Both the position numbers and the translations under genes were made by a program. Positions 13,601-55,800 of a DNA stretch of 64,000 nt are shown here, in pieces (position 1 is the first letter of the stretch; each line of letters starts with the position of its first letter). This DNA is from Branchiostoma floridae (lineage: Eukaryota > Chordata > Leptocardii > Amphioxiformes > Branchiostomatidae). Where the stretch lies: contig NC_049984.1 in NCBI RefSeq assembly GCF_000003815.2, forward strand, positions 5,346,491 through 5,410,490, given 5' to 3'. Under the pieces are notes generated by a model that saw nothing but the letters and a program-made list of their open reading frames with translations, ran no database searches and had not been told where the DNA came from.

Positions 13601-16600
13601 TTGTAGTCATTGCTGTAGATGATGAGAAACTCACAGGGCTCTTGGGTCAACACAGTCAGAATTCTACAAAGAAACAAAGAAAATCATTTGTCAATGTTTA
13701 AGAGTTTGAGCAAATTTTGTAGTAGGTAATCATGCAGGTCCATATTTGAAGTCATTTTTGAAGTTAAGACTTATTGCTGAGTTAAAAGTCTATTTTGTAT
13801 GGAGGATATGGAAATTTCATATGTAACATCAAAGGAGTTGCATTGTTTTCTTGACCATCCTTACCAAAAATAAATTGCTTGTCAGTACATTTAATGTAAT
13901 GACAAGCAATTTATTCTTTCTCTGAAACTAAAGGCTGCCGAAATAACTAGCTCAGAATTTCTGTAGGTCATAAGCTGCCCATACAATTATTGTGGAATAA
14001 ACAGAGCAAGATCTTACCTGCTGTTGGACTCTCTACCTTCTACTCTTTCCAGAGTTCCGAAACAGTCTCCAACTCCAAGCTGTACAAAAACAGAAGACAT
14101 TTTTCATATCATGTTCACATAGCAATAATAGAGTGATCAAGAGGTAACAGTCTAGCTTGGCAACTGTACAAACCATCTAATGAAATGTTTGTTGCATTCC
14201 TAGTATATGTTAGCCTGAATATTCCTTTCATTGTGTGCAGTACATTTTGATGTTGCTGGGAAAGTCTTTCCATTTCACCCCTATATCCTGACACCCCTAT
14301 GCTCAAATAGCCCTATGTTTCAATACCAATATGTCCAACACCCCTATGTTCTGACACCCCTATGTCCTGACACCCATATATTCCAAAACCCCTATGTCCA
14401 ACACCCGTATGTTCCAAAACCCCTATGTCTAACGCCCCTATGTTCTGATATACCTATGTTCTGATATCCCTATGTCCAACACCCCTATGTTCCAATACTC
14501 TGTCCAAAAAACCCATAACCCTAATCTCAACCCTAACACAGGACTGTCTCACCAAAAAATCTCTCACCATGTATATGAGTATTCTTCACATGATAACAAT
14601 CTTACCTCAGGTGTGATGTCCTCCAGGATGGGAGTGGGGCAGTCAAACTCTGCCACCTGGCTCAGCAGCTTGATGTAGGGCAGGGTCTGGGGTCTGACAC
14701 TGCCTTTCAGGATCAGGTGCAACCCCTGGTTACCAAACACTGGAGGAGAGATGGAAGACAGCAACCTTTTTAACTAGGAATTTCTTTGCAGGAAACAATA
14801 ACCTAGCATTCTCCAGTCCAAAGAAACAACTGTTCAAGGTCCCCAAACACCACACAGTCTACACCTATTGAAAGGAGTAGACTGCCCATGCTGTGAGTGG
14901 ATCAAACCTTAGAGTCAGAGTAATCTTGCCCAGTTTGCATGTACTGTACAAAACTGCTTTGTTAAGCCTAAAGGCAGTTTACTGGTAATGCAAAACAAAG
15001 TTTACCAAACACTGGAGGAGATAGGCAAGACATGTGATATCTAGCTACTACCAGTCTGGTCTTACATAGTTTGTACCTACTGCACAAAACTGCTGTGTTA
15101 CACCTAAAGGCTTTTACCATTTATACAAAACAAACAAACAAACACAATGTGACTGACCAGGCACACCCGTCTCCCTCCAGACGTCCAGTTTGGCCACGGT
15201 GGCCATCTCCTTCAGGACCTCATCACTGACCTGGTCAGCCATCGTGGAGAACAGCTGCAGACCCTTGAACACCGTGTGGTGCTCTCGGGCGGAACGCTCA
15301 AAGGGCCTGGAACAAAGTAATAAATTTATTCAGTTGAAGAAAATAATTTTTTTTTACTTTGTCAGACTTGTAGGGCTCAATCATACCTTTTACTTTGCAT
15401 TTAATCTATGGCAGACAAAGATTATAACACAGGTAGATTTAGATGAGACTTGACATTTTGGCCTTTCAAAAATATTTCCCTGGTGCTGACTGTGTTTCCC
15501 TGTCCCTGGTGCTGATTGTGTTTCCCTGTCCCTGGTGCTGAATGTGTTCACCTGTCCCTGGTGCTGATTGTGTTTCCCTGTCCTTGGTGCTGACTGTGTT
15601 TCCCTGTCCCTGGTGCTGACTGTGTTTCCCTGTCCATAGTTCTGTCTGCATTTCCCTGTCCCTGGTGCTGACTGTGTTTCCCTGTCCCTGGTGCTGACTG
15701 TGTTTCCCTGTCCCTGATTGTGTTTCCCTGTCCCTGGTGCTGACTGTGTTTCCTTGTCCCTGGTGCTGATTGTGTTTCCCTGTCCCTGGTGCTGACTGTG
15801 TTTCCCTGTCCCTGGTGCTGACTGTGTTTCCCTGTCCCTGGTACTGTCTGTATTTCCCTGTCCCTGGTGCTGACTGTGTTTCCCTGGCCTTGGTGTATTT
15901 TTCCATTGTATATTTGGACGATATCAGTAACTACAGTGTACAAAATCATCCTAAAATTACATTCATTCAGCTGTACATCTATCAGTATTCAAGTGAGTTT
16001 CTTTGCTCACATTTTCCTGAGAATCTTGCGCAGTGTTCTGATGCAGGCCTGCCTCTGCTGCTGTGGATTTTCCCTCCTTTGTTCCCGGTGAAGTTTGGAC
16101 AGGTGAATCCGGATGTCATGACTCGTCTCCTGCAGGGGTGCTAGCTGATTAACCTTGTGTGACGACAGCGACCCTATAAAGGCAAAAATTATGTTCGTTG
16201 ATGTTTTCTTTGGGTTGGCAAGTGAAACAAACTTCTTTGCACACAGCCAAAGTCTTTAAAACCGCACTGATGTTTTGGCTAGCTGCAGTGCAAACCATTC
16301 AGTAGTTTATGTACCACTAGGATGGTACTAGTGACCAAAATGTCAGCAAGGTACGAATTCTTTGGTTGAAAACAGAGAACTTTTCTATTGAGCAATCTTT
16401 ATAGAAATTTTCCATTTTTGAGATGAGCTTCATGTAGCATCTCATATTTCTTAATAATGCCTAACTAGCGTAGAATATATTGTCATACTTTTTATCTATC
16501 ACCTGAAAATTTGACATCTTGTCTTTAGCAAAGTAATGTTAAGTTAACTGTTTTTCATAAACTTTGTACTGTCATCCAATTGTAAAGTTATCATGGTAGT

Positions 16601-40873: not shown

Positions 40874-43800
40874 ATGTCGCGGGACCGTTCCCACTTGAGT
40901 CCGTTTGGAAACGAGCTGGAGGATTTCGCTCCGGTTGCGGGATGGAGGGACTCTACTGTAAACATGACCGCCTCGGACATACCAGGGGATCCGATAGCCG
41001 CATCGACGGTCATGAGACCAACAGGGGGTCAAAGGTGAGGATGCTCTTTGATTTTGGCATTCAACAGTTTTTTACTCGTATATGTTTGAGAGTTGTTACA
41101 TTTCAAGTCGTCTTGATGTGAACAATGTTCTCCTAACCCAGTTACGTGTATCTTGTTGCAAAACCAGTTAAATGTCAAGGTGTGGTACACCAGTTTAACT
41201 TTGTACAATTTGTTTGTAAGTTAAGTAAGCTATGATAGGATTGTTTGTCACAGAGACGTTATGCTGATTACAACACTGAAGATGATATTGCTAATTGTAC
41301 CAGGACTCCGGTCCAGGAGCACATTTAGCACATGAATGAATGTGGTCAATGTAAAGTATGAGGTGAAATCAAACACTCCTATAGCTACACTTTTTGTTAA
41401 ATATAGTAGAGGTAAACATAATAGATAAACATAAAAGTCTACATTGCTTTGGGATACATTGATTATGAACATTACATATCACTTGCCATGACTACTGCTA
41501 AATATAATTCCACTTTTTGTCCAGAGATAACAGTGACGTCAGAGGGTCATTCATGGAAACTGCCAGCTGGCAAGGTGGAAATGGACTTGGAAATGACAGG
41601 TAATGCCAGCCCAGTAAACAAACAAACAAATAAACGGTACATGTATGTTATATAAAACGATAAAATAATGTACAGATACGAGATATACAGGAAACTTTGT
41701 TAATGCTGCTGTGTTGTTATGAAGGACATTGTAATCATACGCCTAGAAAGTTTATGCAAAGGTATTGTATAGGATAAGTCATTGTTACATAAGGTACAAA
41801 CATTGATATACAGTCAAAGTTGTATAACTATAAGTCACACACTCTACATAAGGACTACCTGGCAAATGAGACCACTTTTTGGCAGTCCCTTTGATAATCT
41901 TTCCCATCAACATGAACACAAAGAATCTTGTCTATAGTCCAGATTTCCGTGCTGCCTTAAATAGACTTCTTGTGCAGTTTTGATTGTATTTACTTTTGAG
42001 AAACTTTTTTTTTAAATCATTCTTTTTATTGTTGATAAAAAACATAATTTTACAGAAAGAAACTCATATGGCAAACATACAAAAATAAAGACGCACATGA
42101 GTAACAACAAAACTGAAAGCTAAAATCCTACAACCAAAGACTATGATCACAACATGTCGTGAGAACCCCTATCATCTCAAACAGACAAATAACGGAAATT
42201 AACTTGATAGGACAATGTGTGGTCTACCCCACTTCCCAATGTGCTTCAGAATCTCATTTTGTCGTTGAGCTTTAATACAAATAGGTAGGAAACAATGAAA
42301 TGAAACCACGTATATATATAAGAAACTTGTCTAATATGAATTTTCTCCTATATCTTCCGGAGCAGTAGCAATGTGGATGACTTCATCCGTTCCCACCGGC
42401 TGTCTGGGATGCTGCAGCACATTGACATGTCCGGCCTGTCTATAGGGAGTGATCCCAACCCAGCTAACATCACGGGATCCAGTGATCACACCCTAGATGG
42501 GACCACCAGCTCGCTTGGAATCATACATCTGGACAGTGTTCATGGTGGGAATGTTATAATATCTTTCCATTTTTAGGACTAGGTGCCAGGGTTGGACAAG
42601 TCTACCTCACTAGCCCTATTGCCCAGGTGAAAGTGCTGATCGCTCAAGTGCGTGACCTACTCCATTTGCCCGATCGGGCAAGTAAGATTTTCACATTTAG
42701 CAGGGCTTGAAATACTTTTTTCTGCATGCATGCACTGGTGTAGGTAACATTGAAAATTGCCTGCATCAGACAAATTTTACCTGCACCACTATGAATTTAG
42801 GAAGTATGGATCATTTTTTAATTGTTTAGGAACCTTTGCTATTTCTTCTTTTAGACTTTATAGGTGGTAACATTCAATGCAGCTAATAAATATAACAATC
42901 CACATACACCCAGATCATAGGACATTTATGTATAAAACCCAGTACATGGACCAGTGCAGGTTAGGTGCAGGTAGACACCAGAAATACCTGCACAGCTCCA
43001 ATTTTTACCTGCACTAACCTGCATATGTAGGTGGTACATGTATTTCGAGCCCTGCCATTTAGTGAGATTTTGATATACTTGTTACTGTTCAGTCACATAT
43101 ATATATTTTTTATTTTATTTTATTTGTTTAACGCTATGTAACAACTGTATGCCAGTTGTTTATAGAACATCACAGTTAATCAGCTTGTATGTTCTTTTAG
43201 TGTTAATTTATATAAATACAAGACTTAAGAGGACTTTGGTAAATTTTGATTTTGTGTCTCCCTTAGACCTATCAGGAAGTCTGGTTCACGTTGAAGATCC
43301 TGCAAAAACACCTGTGAGAGAGGATCAACTGGACCGAACCTTGACCCCTGACCCCTCAGGTCACCCAGATGGTCCCCCTCCACCCTTCGATGCCATGAGA
43401 GGCAGAGGTGCAGGGGAGGATGTCCACATCCCTTCCCACCCCCAGTCAGCCTTCTGGCCTGTGCATGACACAGAGGACAGGAGGTAAAGTGGTTCAATTT
43501 TAGTAGGAAGAATGTTATGTATTCAACAGGATTTTTTGCTTGCTAACTTTACAATTGCGTAGAATAGCCAATATGTCATCCTCAATGACGTTGTTTGTAT
43601 AAGTCAATCTGAAGCAAAGTTGAACTGTAATCTCCCATGCAAAAATTGATCTTAACCCAATTTTTGACGGTCCAACTTAAGTCTTAAGTCACATGTTTTA
43701 TCTGTATAACTTAAAGTCTGCTTCTAGGACAATATGTTATGCAGATACATATGAGCAGTCAGGGATCGAAATACTTTTTTTTTGCTACATGCAAAATTGC

Positions 43801-46800
43801 AAGTTGGCAAAAATTTTACGTGCAATTTGAAAAATTTACATGCAAAATACAACACAGGCGGCGATGGTGACGAGTATCGCTAGCTTGAATCGGTGAATTT
43901 TGATTACATATAGTAAAGTTACCGGAGAAAGTTACTGGCAAAAACAAGAAAGGATAAAGACACACGTCCATTTGTCTTTTTGTCTAAGAGTAGGGGGTCT
44001 AATTCCTCAGTATTTTTCCAATAGGCCAGGTATTTTCAACATGCAAGATTGCAAGTTCAGAATAATTTTACATGCAAATCTCAAAAATTATGTGAAAAAT
44101 GCAAGTTAAGTATGTGTATTTTGAACCCTGGCAGTTTGTGGCCCCACCTCTGTTGAGGATGGTTGTAAGGCTCAGCTTTAAATGGTTCTTTTATTCCTGT
44201 TGGAAAATGAGGGCTGCTTTCTCCAGGGCTTTCTCCAGGACCTGTCCCTCTGTCCAGAGATAGAAATTTGCTTGTTGGGTTGGAGAAAAATTTCACCCCG
44301 TCCTTCCTAAAAATCTAGACTTCAGTACTTTTACTCATGCCATCATGGTCTTACAAAACCAATGAGTGCCTGCTACTACTAGACTAGTACATAAAATTGA
44401 TGAAGAAAAATCAACAACATTGGAAACAAGGAAAATCAACATTGGCTCCCAAACAATGACAGGGACAGAAAAGAATTTAAAGCTGAAAACAGCCCTGGTT
44501 TGACCACAAAGTCTGTTATTCAAGGGTGTAGTTTTGGTAGTAGTGTGGACTGTCATAAGCATTATCTGACTCCTCAGACTGGGCGTCAGTACCTTTGCAG
44601 TGTGCAGGAAGTGGGAGAGGCTCATCTTTCGCAAGTTTGCTTTGATTGGGAGGTCCAGGGGCTTTCTTATCAGCAGGTTGCCCCTGCCCTGCAGTTTTAG
44701 GTATTGGGTTCTTTGATGACATTGCCACACCTGCGTACAGAGGGTTGGGACGTAAGGCTTTTCGCAGTGTGTTGTAGGATGGACTTTGATTCAAGGTTTG
44801 AGTGGTTGCCCAATATTGGCCCTGATCTGTCTGATCATGACCACTGGTCACCATGGCAGTGGTGTATGCTTTATTATCAACATCTTTTGGATCTGGGTCG
44901 GAAGGGGGGTTCCCAGCGGCCTTCCTCTTGAACCAGATTGCACTGATTGTGATGCTGCCAATCAGAATAGTGGCTGCTACTGAAGCACAGATAGACCCAA
45001 TGAGAACAGGTATGGGGACACTGGGTGCAGATTCAAGGGAGGGTTGGCCTTCTGGTTTAGGTGAAGATAATGGTGCCATTTTGCCATTTATCAACACTTT
45101 CCATGGTGTATCATCACCATGGGAAGGACAGATAACTGGTTTGACTGCAAACATAATTCTTGGAGCTTTGGTAGATTTGAGAATGTACCTGACTGAATCT
45201 CGGTTATCTCGTTTGACCACAGTTTCAATTTTGTAAGCTGGGTTAGATTTGTAAATGCAGTAGGATGAATTTTGGTTATTTTGTTTTTAAACAGGTACAG
45301 AGTTTGAAGCTTCAGTAGATTTGAGAATATATCAGTCTGTATACTAGTTAATTGGTTCGAGCTCAGGTCCAAATGATTGAGCTCGGGTAGGTTAGAGAAT
45401 GTACCAGACTGAAAGTTAGTTATTTGGTTGCGAGCCAGTTTTAACCGCTGGAGCCTAGGTTGATTAGACAGTACACTAGATTGAATGTTAGATATCTTAT
45501 TGGAGGAGAGGTCCAAATACTCGAGTTGGGGTAGATTCGAAAATGCACCTTCCTCGATGTTAGTTATTTGGTTTGAGCGCAGATCTACACATTGGAGCCT
45601 TGGTAGGTTCGAGATTGTGTTAGACTGAATTTGAGTTATCTTGTTGGAGTACAGGGTCAACTTTTTGAGTTGAGGCAGATTTGAGAATGTACCAGCTTGG
45701 ATTTTACTTATCTCATTGAAGCGCAGATGTAAACATTGCAGCTGTGGTAGATTTGAAAAGGCACCTAATTGAACAAAAGATATCTTGTTGGATATCAGAT
45801 ACAATGTGTCAAGTTTGGGCAGATCAGAGAATATATGAAACTGAATTTTTGTTATCTGGTTTGTGTCCAGATACAGCGTTTCCAGCCTGGGTAGTTTAGA
45901 GAATGCACCTGCCTGAATGTTAGATATCTTGTTGCCGGACAGATACAACACTTTCAGTTTGGATAGATTTGAAAATGCAGCAAAGTGAATATTAGCTATC
46001 ATATTGAAGGACAGGTCCAGCTGTTGGAGCCTGGGTAAATGTGAGAATGTGCCAGGCTGAATGTGAGTTATCTTGTTGGATTTCAGGCCCAAACTTTCAA
46101 TATTTGGTAGATTTGAGAATATGCCAGAGTCAATATTAGTTATCTGGTTACTTCCCAAGTCTAACTCAGAAATCCGTGATGGGAGGTCCTGGGGGATTCT
46201 AGTAAAGCCCCTGCTTCTGCATTTCCAAACAGAAGTGGGTGAGTAACAGTTGCTACCAGCTCCTGGTATGGTAGGCTCCTTCAGGATGATGAGAAAGAAA
46301 ATCAGCATGCGCCGTAAATTTCGTCTCATGTTGTCCTGCCAAATCATATGAACAGCAAAAGAATCAGGTGTTGAAACAGAAACAAGAGTCATTATAACAG
46401 CTGGTAGCATTTATGTCATCAAGAGGTAGCATGACCAAGATTAAGCCAATATTGCTCCATTGGGTAAGCTTTCTGTATCACCAAATTAAAAATGAAGACA
46501 ATTAATGTTGGCACTGCAAATATACCAGGCAGAAATGTTATGGTTGGCAGACAAGGACTACCAAATAACGAACATTTTTTTCAGCCAAGTATGCATGCCA
46601 ATCAAAGTCCTTTGATGGTTCCAATGCTTTTTGGAGTTGCTTCTGAAAAGGGAGGATATTTTACTCCCAAAAAAGTGGCAGTAGATTGCAAACCAGTCTA
46701 GAAGACAGCAGCATTATAGCAGACATACGCAGCTTGGAACAGCACCAATGGATTTTGTTTGTCTTGTATCCAAAGAAATTTAATGTCATACTCCATTAAA

Positions 46801-49800
46801 GGAATATTGACTGAACCTACAATGGTCACAATTTATTGCTTGAAGAAAGTTTTTTTTTTCCTTTGAACCTACGCAGGCAATTTACCATTTCTAATCTGGC
46901 AGAGATCAAAGGTACTTGGTAGTCATAAGACATTCCTGCCACACATATATAACCTGTGTTACACAATCTCTTGGTGTCAGATGCTGATTGGTCCTCCTCC
47001 CCAAGAGGCCTGGCCAATGGATTTAGGGCTTCTAGTGTGATGTAGTTAGGCAGCCAAACCAATAAATACATTTTGTGAATAGATAAATGTTGTTAGGCTA
47101 TGGCCACACCCAAATTGGATGGGTTTACATGTACCTGAAGTAAATGGAAATGCCTATAGCCCTGTTGGCCAGTAGAAATATTTCATTAAAAATATATGTA
47201 TTTAAAAAAAAAAAAAAGTTGTGAATTTGTAAAGATGAGAATGGATTGTGTCATGCACTGTATTACATTGAAGTGTTTTGAAGGGACTAATATTTGCCCC
47301 CCTGTCTAGCTCCAACCCCATGACATTATATCTACCGGTGTATATTGTCTCATTCATGAATGAGGTTTAGCCATCAAGTTTACAAAAAAAGTGAACCTTT
47401 TAAGACTGCAATTTGACAATACCAGTCTGGAGATGTTCCCCTTGCTTTTTCAAAGGTAATCAATCCATGAGAAGATTGTCTACCCAAGTCCTCCCGATGA
47501 AACAATATTGTAGCATTATGCTGCTATTGCCTGACCATAGTGCTTAGGACAAGAAAGCATACCGGCACTATGATATTTCTCTGCTTAGCATGAAAGTTTA
47601 TCTGTATTGATAAGCAAGTTATCAACATTTTGAGGGCTTGGTATTTCAAGACTAGCACCAGAATGAATTGGGGCTTACCTTTCTCTGCTGTCTATAGAAG
47701 AGATTTACCTTTATGATCCAGACTTGCCTCAGACTCAAATCAATCTTCAGTTGGTCACTTTCTTGGCAGGATGTCCTGAAGCTATTCTTCCTTTCCCTTC
47801 GTTCCTGTTGACAGGTACGTCTTTCGTTGGCACTGGTCTGCAGTGAATTGTGACAAACAGAGTTGATTAGTCTTTGCTATATGGTGATGTTGATTGTCTG
47901 AAGCTGGATATTTGGATATTATAAACATTGATAAGCATGGTTTATTTCAAATCAACTCAACGTATAGCACAGCCTTCCAGGGTCGACCTCTTTTAGATTT
48001 TGAACTCTCCTGCAATTTTCAATAGTTGCCTCGTGGCAGAAAAAAAGGAATTTGCAAGCTCTGTAAGTTAAGATTTGTGCTTTAAATCTTTAACACTTGT
48101 TTTGTACGTGACACATTTTCCTTTTCATTTTTGTCGTTCTTTATTGTTGCGCTGATTGTCTAATCCTGGTGACTTGAATAGTAGGGAAGCAACACTCCTG
48201 TTGTCATTTTGATCTGAGACAATTTTTGCCGGTGCGTAGAGAAGCCGTTCGTTCAACCGTCAACGGTTTGGTTTGCATGGTTGCATGGATGGATGCATGG
48301 ATCGGTCAATTTAACCAAACTCTTCTTATAGCCCTTCTATACGCACGATTACGCATTGTAGTTAGCGTGGCCGAGCGTGGTCTAAGCGCTGGGTGGATAT
48401 AGCGATTTGCTTTTGCAGCCGTGGATCGTGGGTTTGAACCCCACTTGTAACAATTTTTTTTCTTAGACAAATCTCATGTAATGTTTTTTTAATAGAAGAC
48501 AGACCAATTCAGTAATTCGATGTTTAAAAACTCTTTTTTCATGTCATTTTGTTTAACATCCAGGCTTTTTCCAAAATACGCACCTGCCAGCTTTTTTTAG
48601 AAGCTTTCTTGTTTAAAAAGAATTTTGGTGGAAGTGAGCTGGGAAGCAATATTCAAGTTGCGATATTGAGCTGTGACAATTTTCTTGGTAGGATATCTGG
48701 CGGGAGTGAGCTGGGAAGCAAAATCCCTTTTGCCATTTTGAGCTGTGACAAATTGTTTTCTCTCTTTTTTTTTAAGGATTTCTGGCGGGATTTCTGGGTG
48801 AGCTGGGAAGCACCATTTCTGTTGCTGTTTTGAAACATTTTTGTCTTTGTTGCCACCTCTTTTTTGTAGGATTTCTGGTGGGAGAGAGCTGGGAAGCAAC
48901 ATTCAAGTTGCGGTATTGAGCTGTGACAATTTTTTTGGGTAGGATTTCTGGCGGGAGCGAGCTGGGAAGCAACATTCCTGTTGCCATTTTGAGTTGTGAA
49001 GAACTGTTCAAAGTTCAAAGTTTAAAGTTTTATTCTTTCTTGCCACCTTTTTTGTAGGATATCTGGCCATGGTGGGAGTGAGCTGGGAAGCAATATTCAA
49101 GTTGCGATATTGAGCTGTGACAATTTTTTTTGGTAGGATTTCTGGCGGGAGTGAGCTGGGAAGCAAAATCCCTGTTGCCATTTTGAACTGTGATGAATTG
49201 TTTTCTCTCTTTTTTTTTAAAGGATTTCTGGCAGGATTTCTGAGTGAGCTAGGAAGCACCATTTCTGTTGCTGTTTTGAAACATTTTTGTCTTTGTTGCC
49301 ACCTCTTTTTTTGTAGGATTTCTGGTGGGAGTAAGCTGGGAAGCAAAATTCCTGTTGCGATATTGAGCTGTGACAATTTTTTTTGTAGGATTTCTGGCGG
49401 GAGCGAGCTGGGAAGCAACATTCCTTTTTGAGTTGTGAAGAACTGTTCAAAGTTTTATTCTTTGTTGCTGCCTTTTTTGCAAAATTCCTGTTGCGATATT
49501 GAGCTGTGACAATGTTTTTTGTAGGGTTTGTGGTAGAAGTGAGCTGGGGAGCAACATTCCTGTTGCCATTTTAAGCCATCACAAATTGTTTTTTCTTTGT
49601 CGGCACCTCTTTTTTGTAGGATTTCTGCCGGTAGTGAGCTAGGAAGCAACACCACGGACATGTCCATCTTCAGCCACAGGGACAGCAGCATCCTGCCTCT
49701 GGACAACTTTGACCTGCTGGAGGAGGAGCTGGACCGCATGAACCAGACTCAGGATGAGGATGGGGAGGGGGAGCAGGACTTCACCAGGCAGAATGGTGGT

Positions 49801-52800
49801 AGGAACTTGTAATCTTTCTTTATTCATTTTTCAAAAATAAACAGACATCAAGCAATCTTTCTTTATTAATTTTTCAAAAAAAAGACATCAAGAAAAGGCA
49901 TGGCAGATGCAAAACTAGACGCATGTGTTAGGGTTACCCTAAAAACAAAACAAGGTGGTAAGAACCAATGGTTAGTTCAGACCAGAGTTGTCTCCAGGAC
50001 CCGTCCCTCTGTCCTAGGACGTAAATGTGCTTATTGTGATAAAAACTTAATCCGATCCAACATCATTCATTGTACGTAAATTCTCTGTTTCCATGTCACT
50101 GTATGTACATTACTTGTTTTATTTTATTTGTGTAGCAGGGCCCTACTGCAAAGCAGTGTCTATCACTGAGCTGGGCAACCCTGGATAAAAATGATAGAAA
50201 AATATAATAGGTACAATGCTTTATTTGTTATGTTACAGAAGCCAGAGACAGGGCTCCAGAGTCACCCCCACACATCGCCTCTACAGCTGAGCCATCTATG
50301 TTGAGAAGACTGTCCAGTGGAGATGGGGAGGAAAGACTATCTGCAGGTGGGTTGTTACTTATAGTCTTTCCTATTATGTTTCTCATAACAATGCTCAAAA
50401 TACCCACTTGCGCACTTGCAAACAAAATGACATTTTACTCAGCAGAACTTAATTTTAAACTGCAACCCGAAATTTTGCAGTAGGAACACCGCTTTTGCTC
50501 CAGCTACGTGCAGAAGCTTTTGTATTTATTTTGTGATAAGATGAAACATAAGTAGCTACATATAGACAGCCCTGATCATCATTGTTTAAAAATGTTCACC
50601 TGTGCAGGTGCAGGGCCTGTCCCGCAATCTTCAAGAGATGACCACCTGTCTGCTGATGACTACCAGACCAATCAGGTCATCCCTCAGGGAACCAGAGGCC
50701 CTGCCACTGGGAAAGACTCCGCAGAGGAGAGTGAGATTGACACTGAAGATGAGCTGGAAGCTGTCAGAAGGGTGAGTCACAGGGAAGTGTACCTAAATGT
50801 AATATCAGGCACAGCTACAGCTACAATAATCACTTACAGAGGCTTAGGTACAGGTCTGGACCTGTACTTGTACCCGAACAACTTGAGGTCTAAAGTAAAG
50901 TGTTCATTTCATTGAGAACAGAGACATGAATTAACAGTGAACAGAATGTTATTTATGGTTCAGATAACTAATGTAGGGAACCTGTGCTTTTGAGAGCTAC
51001 TACTATCTACTTGAAAAAGCATCATGCTTTCACTTGAGGATGGCTCACTGCTTTATTTTACAATATCCGAATTCACTCACTCACTATTCACTCTGTGGTC
51101 TGTTGTTCCCATGTGACTATGGCTGTCCCTGTAGGACTTAGTGCGCCAGTAGACGAGAGGATGGAGAAGGAAGTGCACACCCCTCCTTCACCTTAAAAAG
51201 TCATGTGCAGGCCAGGCAGACTGGTCGTCTAATCAACCTTGTCTGCCTACCATTGATCTTCGGATACAAAGAAACAGCCATCATGGTTGAATAGTGTATT
51301 TGAAACCACATTTTTTTACAAACTTCACACTGTTTCCTTCAGGAGATGGCAGCTCGAGGAGAGTACCTGACCAAAGGACTGGACAGAGTCGGTGTAGGGG
51401 AGAGTGGGGAGAGCAATGGGAATGGGAAACCCTCCTCCCGGCCTGAACTGCTGGGACAGAACTCTGAAGGTGTGTCACCGCTGGACAACATGAGGCAGTC
51501 AGCAGAGGGGGATGTGGTCACCTCACCTGTGCCTGGTGAGATACTTCATTCATTTATTTTTGCAAGGATTTAATATTGTGATAGGATGAGACCCAGGCAC
51601 AAGTTCACAGTTGAAACAATTGTACAATATAGTAGTTATACAATGGAAATGCATATTATAATATATGAATATAGTTTAACTGCAATTTCTAACACAAAAA
51701 ATTGGACTTCCCCAAATTTTCAGCTGATTGACTCCAGTCTTTGCCAGGGAATAAATGATCCACTGCTTCTGTCACGTCATGTTATATAGATAGCACACGT
51801 GACTCAGTGAGAATTCGATCATAAGTTGCAGAAAGGCTATGCCATCCTCCGTCTCTGTTTAGTAACGGTTGTAAAGCTTTCATGTAGATGGCGTCTTTTG
51901 ATTCATCTGGCCAAAAGTCTGGTTCTTTGTCCAGGATTCTCACTTTGTGCCCCAAAATGAATTTCAAGCCCTGATTGTTGTTAAATGATTACACTTTCAA
52001 ACAGAAATCCCCAAGTATCAAGAAACAATAGCATATATTAGTTAACTATGTTTTACTGTATCTTCAACCCTGTAGGTGACGGTGGTGGAGGGGGTGACGG
52101 CAGTAGTGGGAACAGCAGCGATGACAACAGACCAGTGCAGATCGCAGGCGGCCAGGTGACTTTAGACGTTCTGCGCAGCCTCGGCATGATGCCTGCGCCC
52201 CAGGCTAGGAGGCCCAGCCAGGGCAGTGTCAGGGATGCAGGGGAAAACGACGTGTCAGATCCTGTCAGGGAGTCTATTCCTGGCCATGAAGAGGCAAGTT
52301 ACATACATTTCCCCCCTCTTATTTGGATTTTTTTAAAGAACAAAACAACAAAAACAAGGAAAGTTGGTGAACCAGCCAACAGAAAGATGATAATAGTACA
52401 ATTTAAATAAGTTACGGACGCTTGCTAGAACCCTGGATCAGAATTAAAACAGTGTCTGCAGGGGGGGGGGGGGTCACACCACTGCCAGGAGTTTATTCCA
52501 GGGCACGAAGAGGCAAGTTACATACATCAATTTGTATGTTTGAGTCTTCAATAGTGATACCGGGAAAAAAATTGCAAGGGGGAACATTGTGATCGAGCAG
52601 AGTAACCCAATAGGGCGTGTTGAAAGGCACTTTCAAAGGGGGGGGGTCCCTCCTTTTCGAGGTTTGCCTTGAAGCTGTCGGAAGAATGACAATTGAAACA
52701 TTGAAAAGGGAGAAACCTTAAAGTCTGCTTTGTATAAAGAACTGTCTTAACTGATTGCATGTTTTCTTCTCTAGGTAGAGAGAATAGGTCCTGTAGGCAG

Positions 52801-55800
52801 TGGCGTTGGCGACCCCTCGACATGAGAGTAGTTCACTTTGCCAGCATTGGAAGAAGGACTACTGAAACATTGGAAAGGGAGAAACCTTTGTATTGTGTCA
52901 AGAGCTATCCTGATAAATAACTACATGTTTTTTTTTCTGTAAGGCCATGTTGATTTGATTATATGGATGACATCCTCTGGGAACTCCAAAACTGATGCGA
53001 GCGAGCGAATAAAAAAAAAGTTTGGCCGAAAAAAAAAGTTGCCTCCAGTATGAAATCAAAGTGGCCAGGATGGTTGAACATAGGACTTACAGTACACACA
53101 TAGTATGGTATACCAACTGTTAGGTGTAGGGACCAGTACATCATACGGGTGCAAGCTCTAGACATTTTTCTTCTTCTTGAATTTTCTGTACTGGTCTGGT
53201 ACCTCCCCGTACCAACAGTAGATTTTTTTTTTCTTTCTGTCCTTTCACATTTTATTCTTTGACTTTTGATTTATTTTGGCATTCTATGGCATTAGACTAT
53301 GATTAGTTATATACTTATCTGTTTTCTGATCCTTTTTTTTTCAATCTACGGAATATTTGTGCTCATTTTACAGCTGCCTTGCAAAATTTATTGTGTGGTC
53401 AAAAACTTTTTTTTTTTGAAACGGCCGAAAATTGGTGCGAGCGCGGATGTCATCCATATAATCAAATCAACATGGCCTAACAGGTAGAGAGAATGGGTCC
53501 TGTAGGCAGTGGGGGTGGAGACCCCCCTGATGTGAGAGGGGTTAGCATTGGAAGAAGACTACTGAAACATTGGAAAGGGAGAAACTTTTGTATTGTGTAC
53601 AGAACTATCCTAAACGATGGCATTTTCTGTTTGTATCAGGTAGAGAGAATGGGTCCTGTAGGCAGTGGGGGTGGGGACCCCCCTGACGTGAGAGGAGTTC
53701 ACTTTGCGAGTATGGACGAGTACAGACAGATCTCTCGCACATCTTCCCTCTCATCACAGAGTCAGGCACAGCAGGACTCCAGGGAGGGGTGGGAACAGGT
53801 AAGGGTATGGTTTACTACAGGTAAAAAAGGCAAAGGTTCAACAGTAGAGCCATATACCTTAACAGTACCAGTACAGAGGTTAAGGTACAGGTCTGTACCT
53901 GTATCTGTACCTGAAGTATTTGACAAAGTATATACCCACTTCCAGTAGTGCTTGCACTACGGTGTACCTCGATGGCTTTAGAAAACGGGAATAGGCACTG
54001 CCCTCTACACAAAATACTGTAAATGCATTTAAGTTCTTCGTGGGGATTTAATTTTGTGGTAGCGGGAAAAAGGACTTTTCGCAGTGGTTTTAAGTTCACA
54101 GTAGCACCATTACTACCTTGGAAAAATGTTCGTGGTGACTTAAAGTTCACAAACATTAAACCACCGCAAAAGTTTCTGCATTTACAGTAGTATTAAAAGG
54201 ACTTATACTGTGTTTTTTTTCAGGAGAACCAACAGGGCAACGGCCAGCCATCCAACAATGAAACAGGTGATCAGACATCCCTGCTGGCCTCCAAGTTTTT
54301 CCTGCCCACATCCAGACCTTCCACCGACTCTGTCGTCAGCGAGTCTACAGCTGGTCCATGGACGCATGACGCCTCCTCCTTCCACCTGTCGGAGCTGCAC
54401 ACTTCTGGGAGGGATCGAACGTCCGCTGAGCAGTTGGACAATGACGACACCCTGGTTGGTTTGGAGAAGGAGTTTGGTGATGGGGAGGAACAGGAGGAAG
54501 ACTTGGCGGGGCAGCAGGTTGAAAAAAGTTTTAAAATCGTCACAATGGATATGAAATTTTAGGCAGAAATTTTCTTAAGGATCTAACTTGTATTTTGGAT
54601 AATGATGACACCTTGGTTGGTCTGGAGACGGAGTTTGTTGATGAACAGAAAGAGAACTTGGCTGGGCTCCAGGTAGAAAAGAGTGTTAAATCTTCACAAT
54701 GGATATCAAATTATAGGTAGAAATTTTCTTAAGGATCTAACTTGTATTTTGGATAATGACGACACATTGGTCGGTTTGGAAAGGGAATTTGGTGATGGGG
54801 AGGAACAGAACAGTAAGTAAGAGGAACAGAAGGAAGACTTGGCTGGGAACCAGGTGGAAAAACAGTTTTAACATATTTACAGTGGATATCCGGTTGAGGG
54901 CAGAAATTTCCTCAAGGAACTTAAGTTGTATTTTATAGTATTTTATATGCAATTTGTATAAATATGTCAGGGTAGAGATTGCAATTCATCTGGTAATGAT
55001 GGGAGTTGATGTCAGGTTAAGGCAATCTCTATCCAAACATGTATTTTGAATCTTTCCATTTTTCTAAGTAAAATCATGGTTATTTGGAATGATTTTTAAA
55101 AGTAACCCTTCTGGGCATAAAAGAGATGTTCACACAAGTGCTGTTCATACTGTGCATTGTGTATGTGAAAATGTATACTGAGACATTCTTTTTAAATGTT
55201 GAACCTCCTAATTTGGCCTTTCGTTATTAAAAAGAGAAATATGACAAAGAAGAACTGAAAATGTCCCTCCCTAGACAAACGTATTGCCTGTATTACATTC
55301 AGTTGAACTGAGGAGTTTTTATCTGTTCATGTAGGATGTAGAAAATCCTTTTGACATCAATGAAGAGGACTTGAACTGGAGAACTGCTGGAGACTTTGGC
55401 ATGGAGAATGGTGCATTAAAGGTACATGTTGTAGCCTATTAAAAGGAAACTTTGTTCTTTTTAGTGAAATTTCTCTAATTTTACCCTTCCCTTAGTCTGG
55501 TTGGTCATTGAGTCACCATGGATACTCTGTCATCGTGTATAGTCCAATGGCCTCTTGATCAAGTAGCAACCCTACCTCTGGATGGTCAGGAGTTTGAATA
55601 CTGTCTGTTGTCTCCTGACATGCACGCTACCAGAATGAGTTGCTGTCCTGAGAATGGGACGTTAAAAAGTGGGCCGCTGTTCATTGCATTCAAGCAGATA
55701 GAATCATTGCTTCAGTGTGTGCGTCTGTTATTATCCCTGTCCTATTTCACAATTTTTCATGTTTCATTCCAGGGCCTTGACAATCCGTTCGGTGCTGTAA

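Follow-up and report, generated by a model that had tools for sequence, protein, structure and literature searches.

What is a long row of splice acceptors doing within an intron, how did it arise, and does it need a function? These questions are raised by a stretch of the Branchiostoma floridae genome (the window; 64,000 nucleotides of contig NC_049984.1) in which an acceptor and the start of its exon are repeated in tandem directly before the exon itself. The initial annotation knew of no named feature of this type; however, tandem repeats over exon-intron junctions have been termed "mirages" in amphioxus Adh3, a name credited to Canestro 2002 in the available text of PMC3087553, which also describes them in globin genes. 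We assign a probability of roughly 0.85 to the array being a mirage, i.e., a neutral, unstable minisatellite with a unit that merely chances to lie across an intron-exon junction.

Acceptor copies in a CEP192 intron

Exons of the host gene were read by eye, giving a model of 17 exons (42366-62559) that starts at 42366 and has an arbitrary end within a long open exon. The joined reading frame stays open over 1912 codons, showing that the exon phases fit at each junction. A 166-residue stretch of the model matched human CEP192 (PDB entry 8pr7; E = 3.3e-5), and the following 10 kb of the contig contained the Pfam Cep192 domains D1, D2, D3 and D5 above their cut-offs and D4 below its cut-off. Judged by these similarities, the host gene of the array is CEP192. 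The features in and around the array-bearing intron, in window positions, are:

43267-43483, plus strand: upstream CEP192 exon Eb, ending in phase 2 (AG/GTAAAG)
43484-49619, plus strand: 6.1 kb intron with the array and a nested antisense leucine-rich-repeat (LRR) gene
48184-48227, plus strand: diverged relic of the repeat unit outside the main array, 84% to 49338-49381
48620-49064, plus strand: first block, with junctions 48621, 48692, 48777, 48870 and 48943 and the start of the 49058 copy
49065-49510, plus strand: second block, starting within the exonic part of the 49058 copy, with junctions 49137, 49223, 49317 and 49389
49511-49619, plus strand: decoy junction 49525, the last of the array, together with the intronic half of the true-acceptor unit
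49620-49798, plus strand: true exon Ec (179 nt); the exonic part of the repeat unit corresponds to its opening ~34 bases

Ec is the third exon of the model, and its start encodes the residues ISAGSELGSN. As Eb ends and Ec begins in phase 2, position 49620 is the coherent acceptor. The LRR gene nested antisense in the same intron (44516-46410, minus strand) gave an LRR_8 match of E = 6.7e-121 for 45091-46410; its downstream frame (44516-45286) contains a membrane-like segment by eye and had no match in Pfam.

Eleven extra copies of the Ec acceptor junction occupy 48620-49619 and abut the true acceptor. Each unit runs from a pyrimidine tract through an AG into the first ~34 bases of the following exon. 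The copies were found computationally and their coordinates then set by hand, which placed the first exonic bases of copies 1-6 at 48621, 48692, 48777, 48870, 48943 and 49058 and those of copies 7-11 at 49137, 49223, 49317, 49389 and 49525, ahead of the true exon at 49620 and with 71-136 bases from junction to junction. The eleven-unit array described initially is thus confirmed. The AG precedes all eleven copies (with a one-base shift for 48621) and the pyrimidine-rich tract, assessed by eye, is kept in ten and lost in 48621, but an ungapped match to the true exon at 24-29 of the first 34 bases is restricted to seven copies. The other four (48621, 48777, 49058 and 49223) reach 10-16 of 34 bases ungapped and carry small shifts or insertions.

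A 64-nt segment across the junction produced eight ungapped matches of at least 38/64 within its own intron and none in 40 dinucleotide shuffles of that intron. Chance origin of the copies is excluded, since the shuffles reach at most 33/64 and the real intron 54/64. All ten copies of the Ec acceptor region returned by BLAST span the junction. The array is therefore real, and its tandem, minisatellite-like repeats with a unit lying across an exon-intron junction are those of a mirage. Together with the exon phases and the Pfam and PDB matches, the BLAST copies bear out the earlier description of a minisatellite in CEP192 whose unit spans a splice acceptor. By itself, Tandem Repeats Finder reports just 49343-49600 of the array, and a search of Rfam around it gave a single weak match, to a snoRNA model on the minus strand at 49489-49560 (20.2 bits; cut-off 65).

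Growth of the array took place at two levels, as the initial annotation had proposed from a five-unit block repeated as a whole. When 48620-49064 is aligned with 49065-49510, 396 of 422 aligned bases are identical and 26 differ, with gaps in a further 47 columns, corresponding to duplication of a five-copy block of ~446 bp as one piece. The intronic unit types recur in the same order across the blocks, and a tree of the units pairs 48692 with 49137, 48777 with 49223 and 48870 with 49317. The relic lies ~440 bases upstream of the array, beyond the coordinates given for it earlier, and lacks most of the exonic part. Between relic and array, a stretch at 48365-48450 looks tRNA-like by eye; no tRNA or SINE match was obtained for it with ARAGORN (bacterial code) or Rfam.

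A mobile-element origin was considered and is not supported. When the genome was searched with 49300-49660, the four matches listed (one being the query itself) all fell inside the array; this search scores the best candidates only and omits very common words, which makes the match list a lower bound. As the listed matches stay inside the array, there is no sign of a mobile element.

Comparison with described amphioxus mirages

A close counterpart is the mirage of the globin gene BflGb6, whose unit, according to the available text of PMC3087553, joins an intron's 3' end to the 5' part of exon 2. Both loci carry tandem copies of an intron 3' end and exon 5' part upstream of the real exon, with splice signals intact in many, though not all, copies. 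They differ in dimensions, as BflGb6 has 150-160 bp units present six or three times per haplotype, while in CEP192 the junctions lie 71-136 bp apart, the extra copies number eleven and a block of five copies is duplicated. A second globin gene, BflGb9, is described in the same text with a mirage of 157 bp. In Adh3, tandem repeats also lie across exon-intron junctions, with units of 10-72 bp (PMC3087553 and PMC3902484, available text); length and somatic instability are reported there, whereas the CEP192 array was seen in one assembly. Junction-spanning repeats in amphioxus troponin C and PGBD5 are described in the accessible part of PMC3902484. Those of PGBD5 are likewise imperfect and tandem (60 and 108 bp) and sit at or over 5' and 3' splice sites, but they are smaller, the 108-bp one being called a triplication. 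For these four cases (Adh3, globin, troponin C and PGBD5), "mirage" is the term mostly used in print.

The available sections of PMC3087553 also put forward mirages as a route of intron gain. This relates them to the Rogers model of intron gain by tandem AG/GT duplication, in which duplicated splice signals could create new introns or exons; at CEP192, what is seen is the duplicated signals. Overall, the array is a large new example of an already described and named mirage, not a new kind of thing. No paper naming both CEP192 and amphioxus was found in the open-licence literature, and a genome-wide mirage census was absent among the matches listed there. Such a census in lancelets would allow a direct test of the older proposal that tandem duplication of splice sites gives rise to introns.

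Junction-spanning duplications in CEP192 and other genes

Local copies span four of the 33 junctions in the CEP192 model (17 acceptors, 16 donors). Besides the ten BLAST copies of the Ec acceptor, the Eg donor has one copy, the Eh acceptor one (by the strict rule) and the Ei donor two:

52269-52308, plus strand: Eg donor junction (GC donor), copied at 52488-52527 (90%)
52488-52527, plus strand: the one local copy of this Eg junction
52680-53713, plus strand: second acceptor mirage (Eh, true exon start 53640), with copies near 52776 and 53484
54434-54934, plus strand: donor mirage of the Ei exon end and donor (54518), with copies at 54640-54711 and 54821-54889

The Eh copy at 53484 was recognized by reading and by a repeat-pair signal and comes on top of the strict-rule count. 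The donor of Eg is apparently GC (GAG/GCAAGT, 52293-52294). A fifth case was read just downstream, in the exon starting the Cep192 D1 domain, where a donor junction is copied (locus L005, 206-309 and 362-465). Local copies were present at none of 103 control positions inside exons and at 79 of 297 inside introns; all but four of the latter (42724, 43824, 56783 and 56798) lie in the nested LRR gene, the mirage regions or the relic. With the LRR gene left out, the duplication families of CEP192 include a junction in 4/4 cases at E<=1e-8 and in 4/5 at E<=1e-5, compared with 20% expected under a simple null. In CEP192, the bias towards junctions thus looks strong.

Other genes were surveyed at 69 loci of the same assembly (9 globin, 30 kinase and 30 kinesin; 60 chaperonin exon matches were left out). 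Of the nine globin loci, five show local duplications, with a copy running across an edge of the matched exon in two. In L015, 150-bp repeats cover the beginning of that exon, with three extra junctions by reading, and in L011 a 157-bp repeat covers the exon end; in period and position, these repeats match both published globin mirages, which also supports the species being B. floridae. At E<=1e-5, 20 of the 60 kinase and kinesin loci contain local duplications, which as such are thus common. Copies crossing a matched exon edge, with junctions assigned by reading, occur in three of the 60 (L072, L045 and L066); at many kinase loci the whole-domain match falls in a single open frame, and these survey figures are consequently not per-junction rates. 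By inspection, about 4 of 27 duplication families (E<=1e-5) include a junction versus about 1.5 expected, i.e., the junction bias in this survey is weak and a general bias is not established.

In L072, a kinesin motor exon is preceded by two extra acceptor copies (1174-1588; 91-93% identical, ~151-bp period). The copied part includes a GQTGAGKT stretch, which we take to be the kinesin motor motif. In L045, both junctions of one protein-kinase exon, acceptor and donor, are present in two additional copies each (1182-1550 and 1819-2398), and L066 has donor-junction copies. Because the copied exonic part in other arrays is clearly coding (e.g., L072), duplication at those loci ran from the exon junction into the intron. 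The analysis adds one large, structured mirage, with about five in CEP192, and three more in kinase or kinesin loci.

Splice-site strength, origin and alternatives

Acceptors were scored with a matrix built on the 16 other acceptors of the gene, a small set taken from the by-eye exon model. The true acceptor scores 7.1 on this scale. Five of the eleven decoys exceed it (9.6-11.6), the remaining six fall below it (-2.7 to 6.6), and array copies take the top four places among the 414 AGs of the intron. Site score alone thus fails to explain why the true acceptor wins, as five decoys outscore it, and mirage arrays offer a natural test of how the spliceosome chooses one acceptor among many strong copies. 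When each decoy was joined to Eb in silico and read through, a stop was reached in all eleven cases, ten before Ec and one (49525) inside Ec in a shifted frame. Units open for over 100 codons, as initially reported, exist as plus-strand stop-to-stop frames (101 and 105 codons), but runs that begin at a copy's acceptor and keep the phase in which Eb ends extend to at most 98 codons. Two open, in-frame cassette exons can be predicted by pairing a decoy acceptor with a donor-like site:

48870-48938, plus strand: hypothetical cassette exon of 69 nt (prediction only)
49058-49132, plus strand: hypothetical cassette exon of 75 nt, from the same unit types (prediction only)

Their donor-like sites score 6.9 and 6.8 bits with a donor matrix built from 15 sites, on which modelled CEP192 donors span 1.6-11.1.

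As a neutral mirage, the array would have begun with head-to-tail duplication of a segment comprising the intron end and the first ~34 exon bases. Unequal exchange or slippage may then have generated several unit types, with the five-copy block copied later, an order suggested by the copies themselves. Since no extra copy lies beyond the start of the exon, the whole set would normally be removed with the intron. The true acceptor is probably chosen by exon definition, being the sole one that opens onto the full 179-nt exon with a donor at the usual distance. A transcript mis-spliced at a decoy and read through would meet its premature stop and be expected to be degraded. We see no need for a function of the array. 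Counting against neutrality are the strong decoy scores and the two possible cassette exons.

Both of these points enter into functional readings. Acting as decoy or poison acceptors, the copies could form a regulatory bank that diverts splicing into stop-containing products and thereby tunes or lowers CEP192 output, and the higher scores of five decoys, the stop in every read-through product and the retained AGs fit such a role. We regard it as very unlikely, because stops are expected of intron sequence anyway, AG retention is not independent in copies made by block duplication, and no disturbed splicing is reported at other mirages in the available text of PMC3087553 and PMC3902484; in the former, Adh3 data and globin RT-PCR suggest that regular splicing is undisturbed. 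Highly improbable, too, is an exon or intron in the making, with units supplying in-frame cassette exons in line with the intron-gain route proposed for globin mirages. Although the 69- and 75-nt exons are open and their donors within the gene's range, the cassettes are predictions from a matrix of few sites, and the donor-like GT directly precedes the AG of the next copy (GTAG), an awkward position.

The direction of duplication in CEP192, from exon to intron or the reverse, cannot be shown by the array's sequence alone. An intronic minisatellite may have existed first, its last copy being adopted as an exon start that lengthened the protein by about 11 residues, and the unremarkable look of the encoded residues at the Ec start would agree with this. 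The inclusion of a junction in every CEP192 duplication family at the stricter threshold (LRR gene excluded) and the conserved coding sequence of copied exon parts in other genes make this order of events quite unlikely, and an array formed in this way would still resemble a mirage today. That the array is an assembly artefact seems scarcely credible: a supplement legend of PMC3087553 does mention a globin mirage apparently aberrantly assembled in an earlier genome draft, but the copies here are diverged, 26 substitutions and several indels separate the blocks, and a second locus was absent among the genome matches listed. Beyond the neutral mirage, a bolder reading would hold that junction-spanning duplication is pervasive and biased in this genome, with junctions as hot spots, and that 48870-48938 and 49058-49132 are already used as in-frame cassettes. 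We consider this combination unlikely; if true, intron and exon birth would have been caught in progress in CEP192, a gene with at least five mirages.

Tandem repeats also occur elsewhere in the window. A 26-bp repeat is present in 16 copies at 15477-15895, and 992-1871 holds a complex array whose units measure 53-78 bp and which shows additional periods of 214 and 290.
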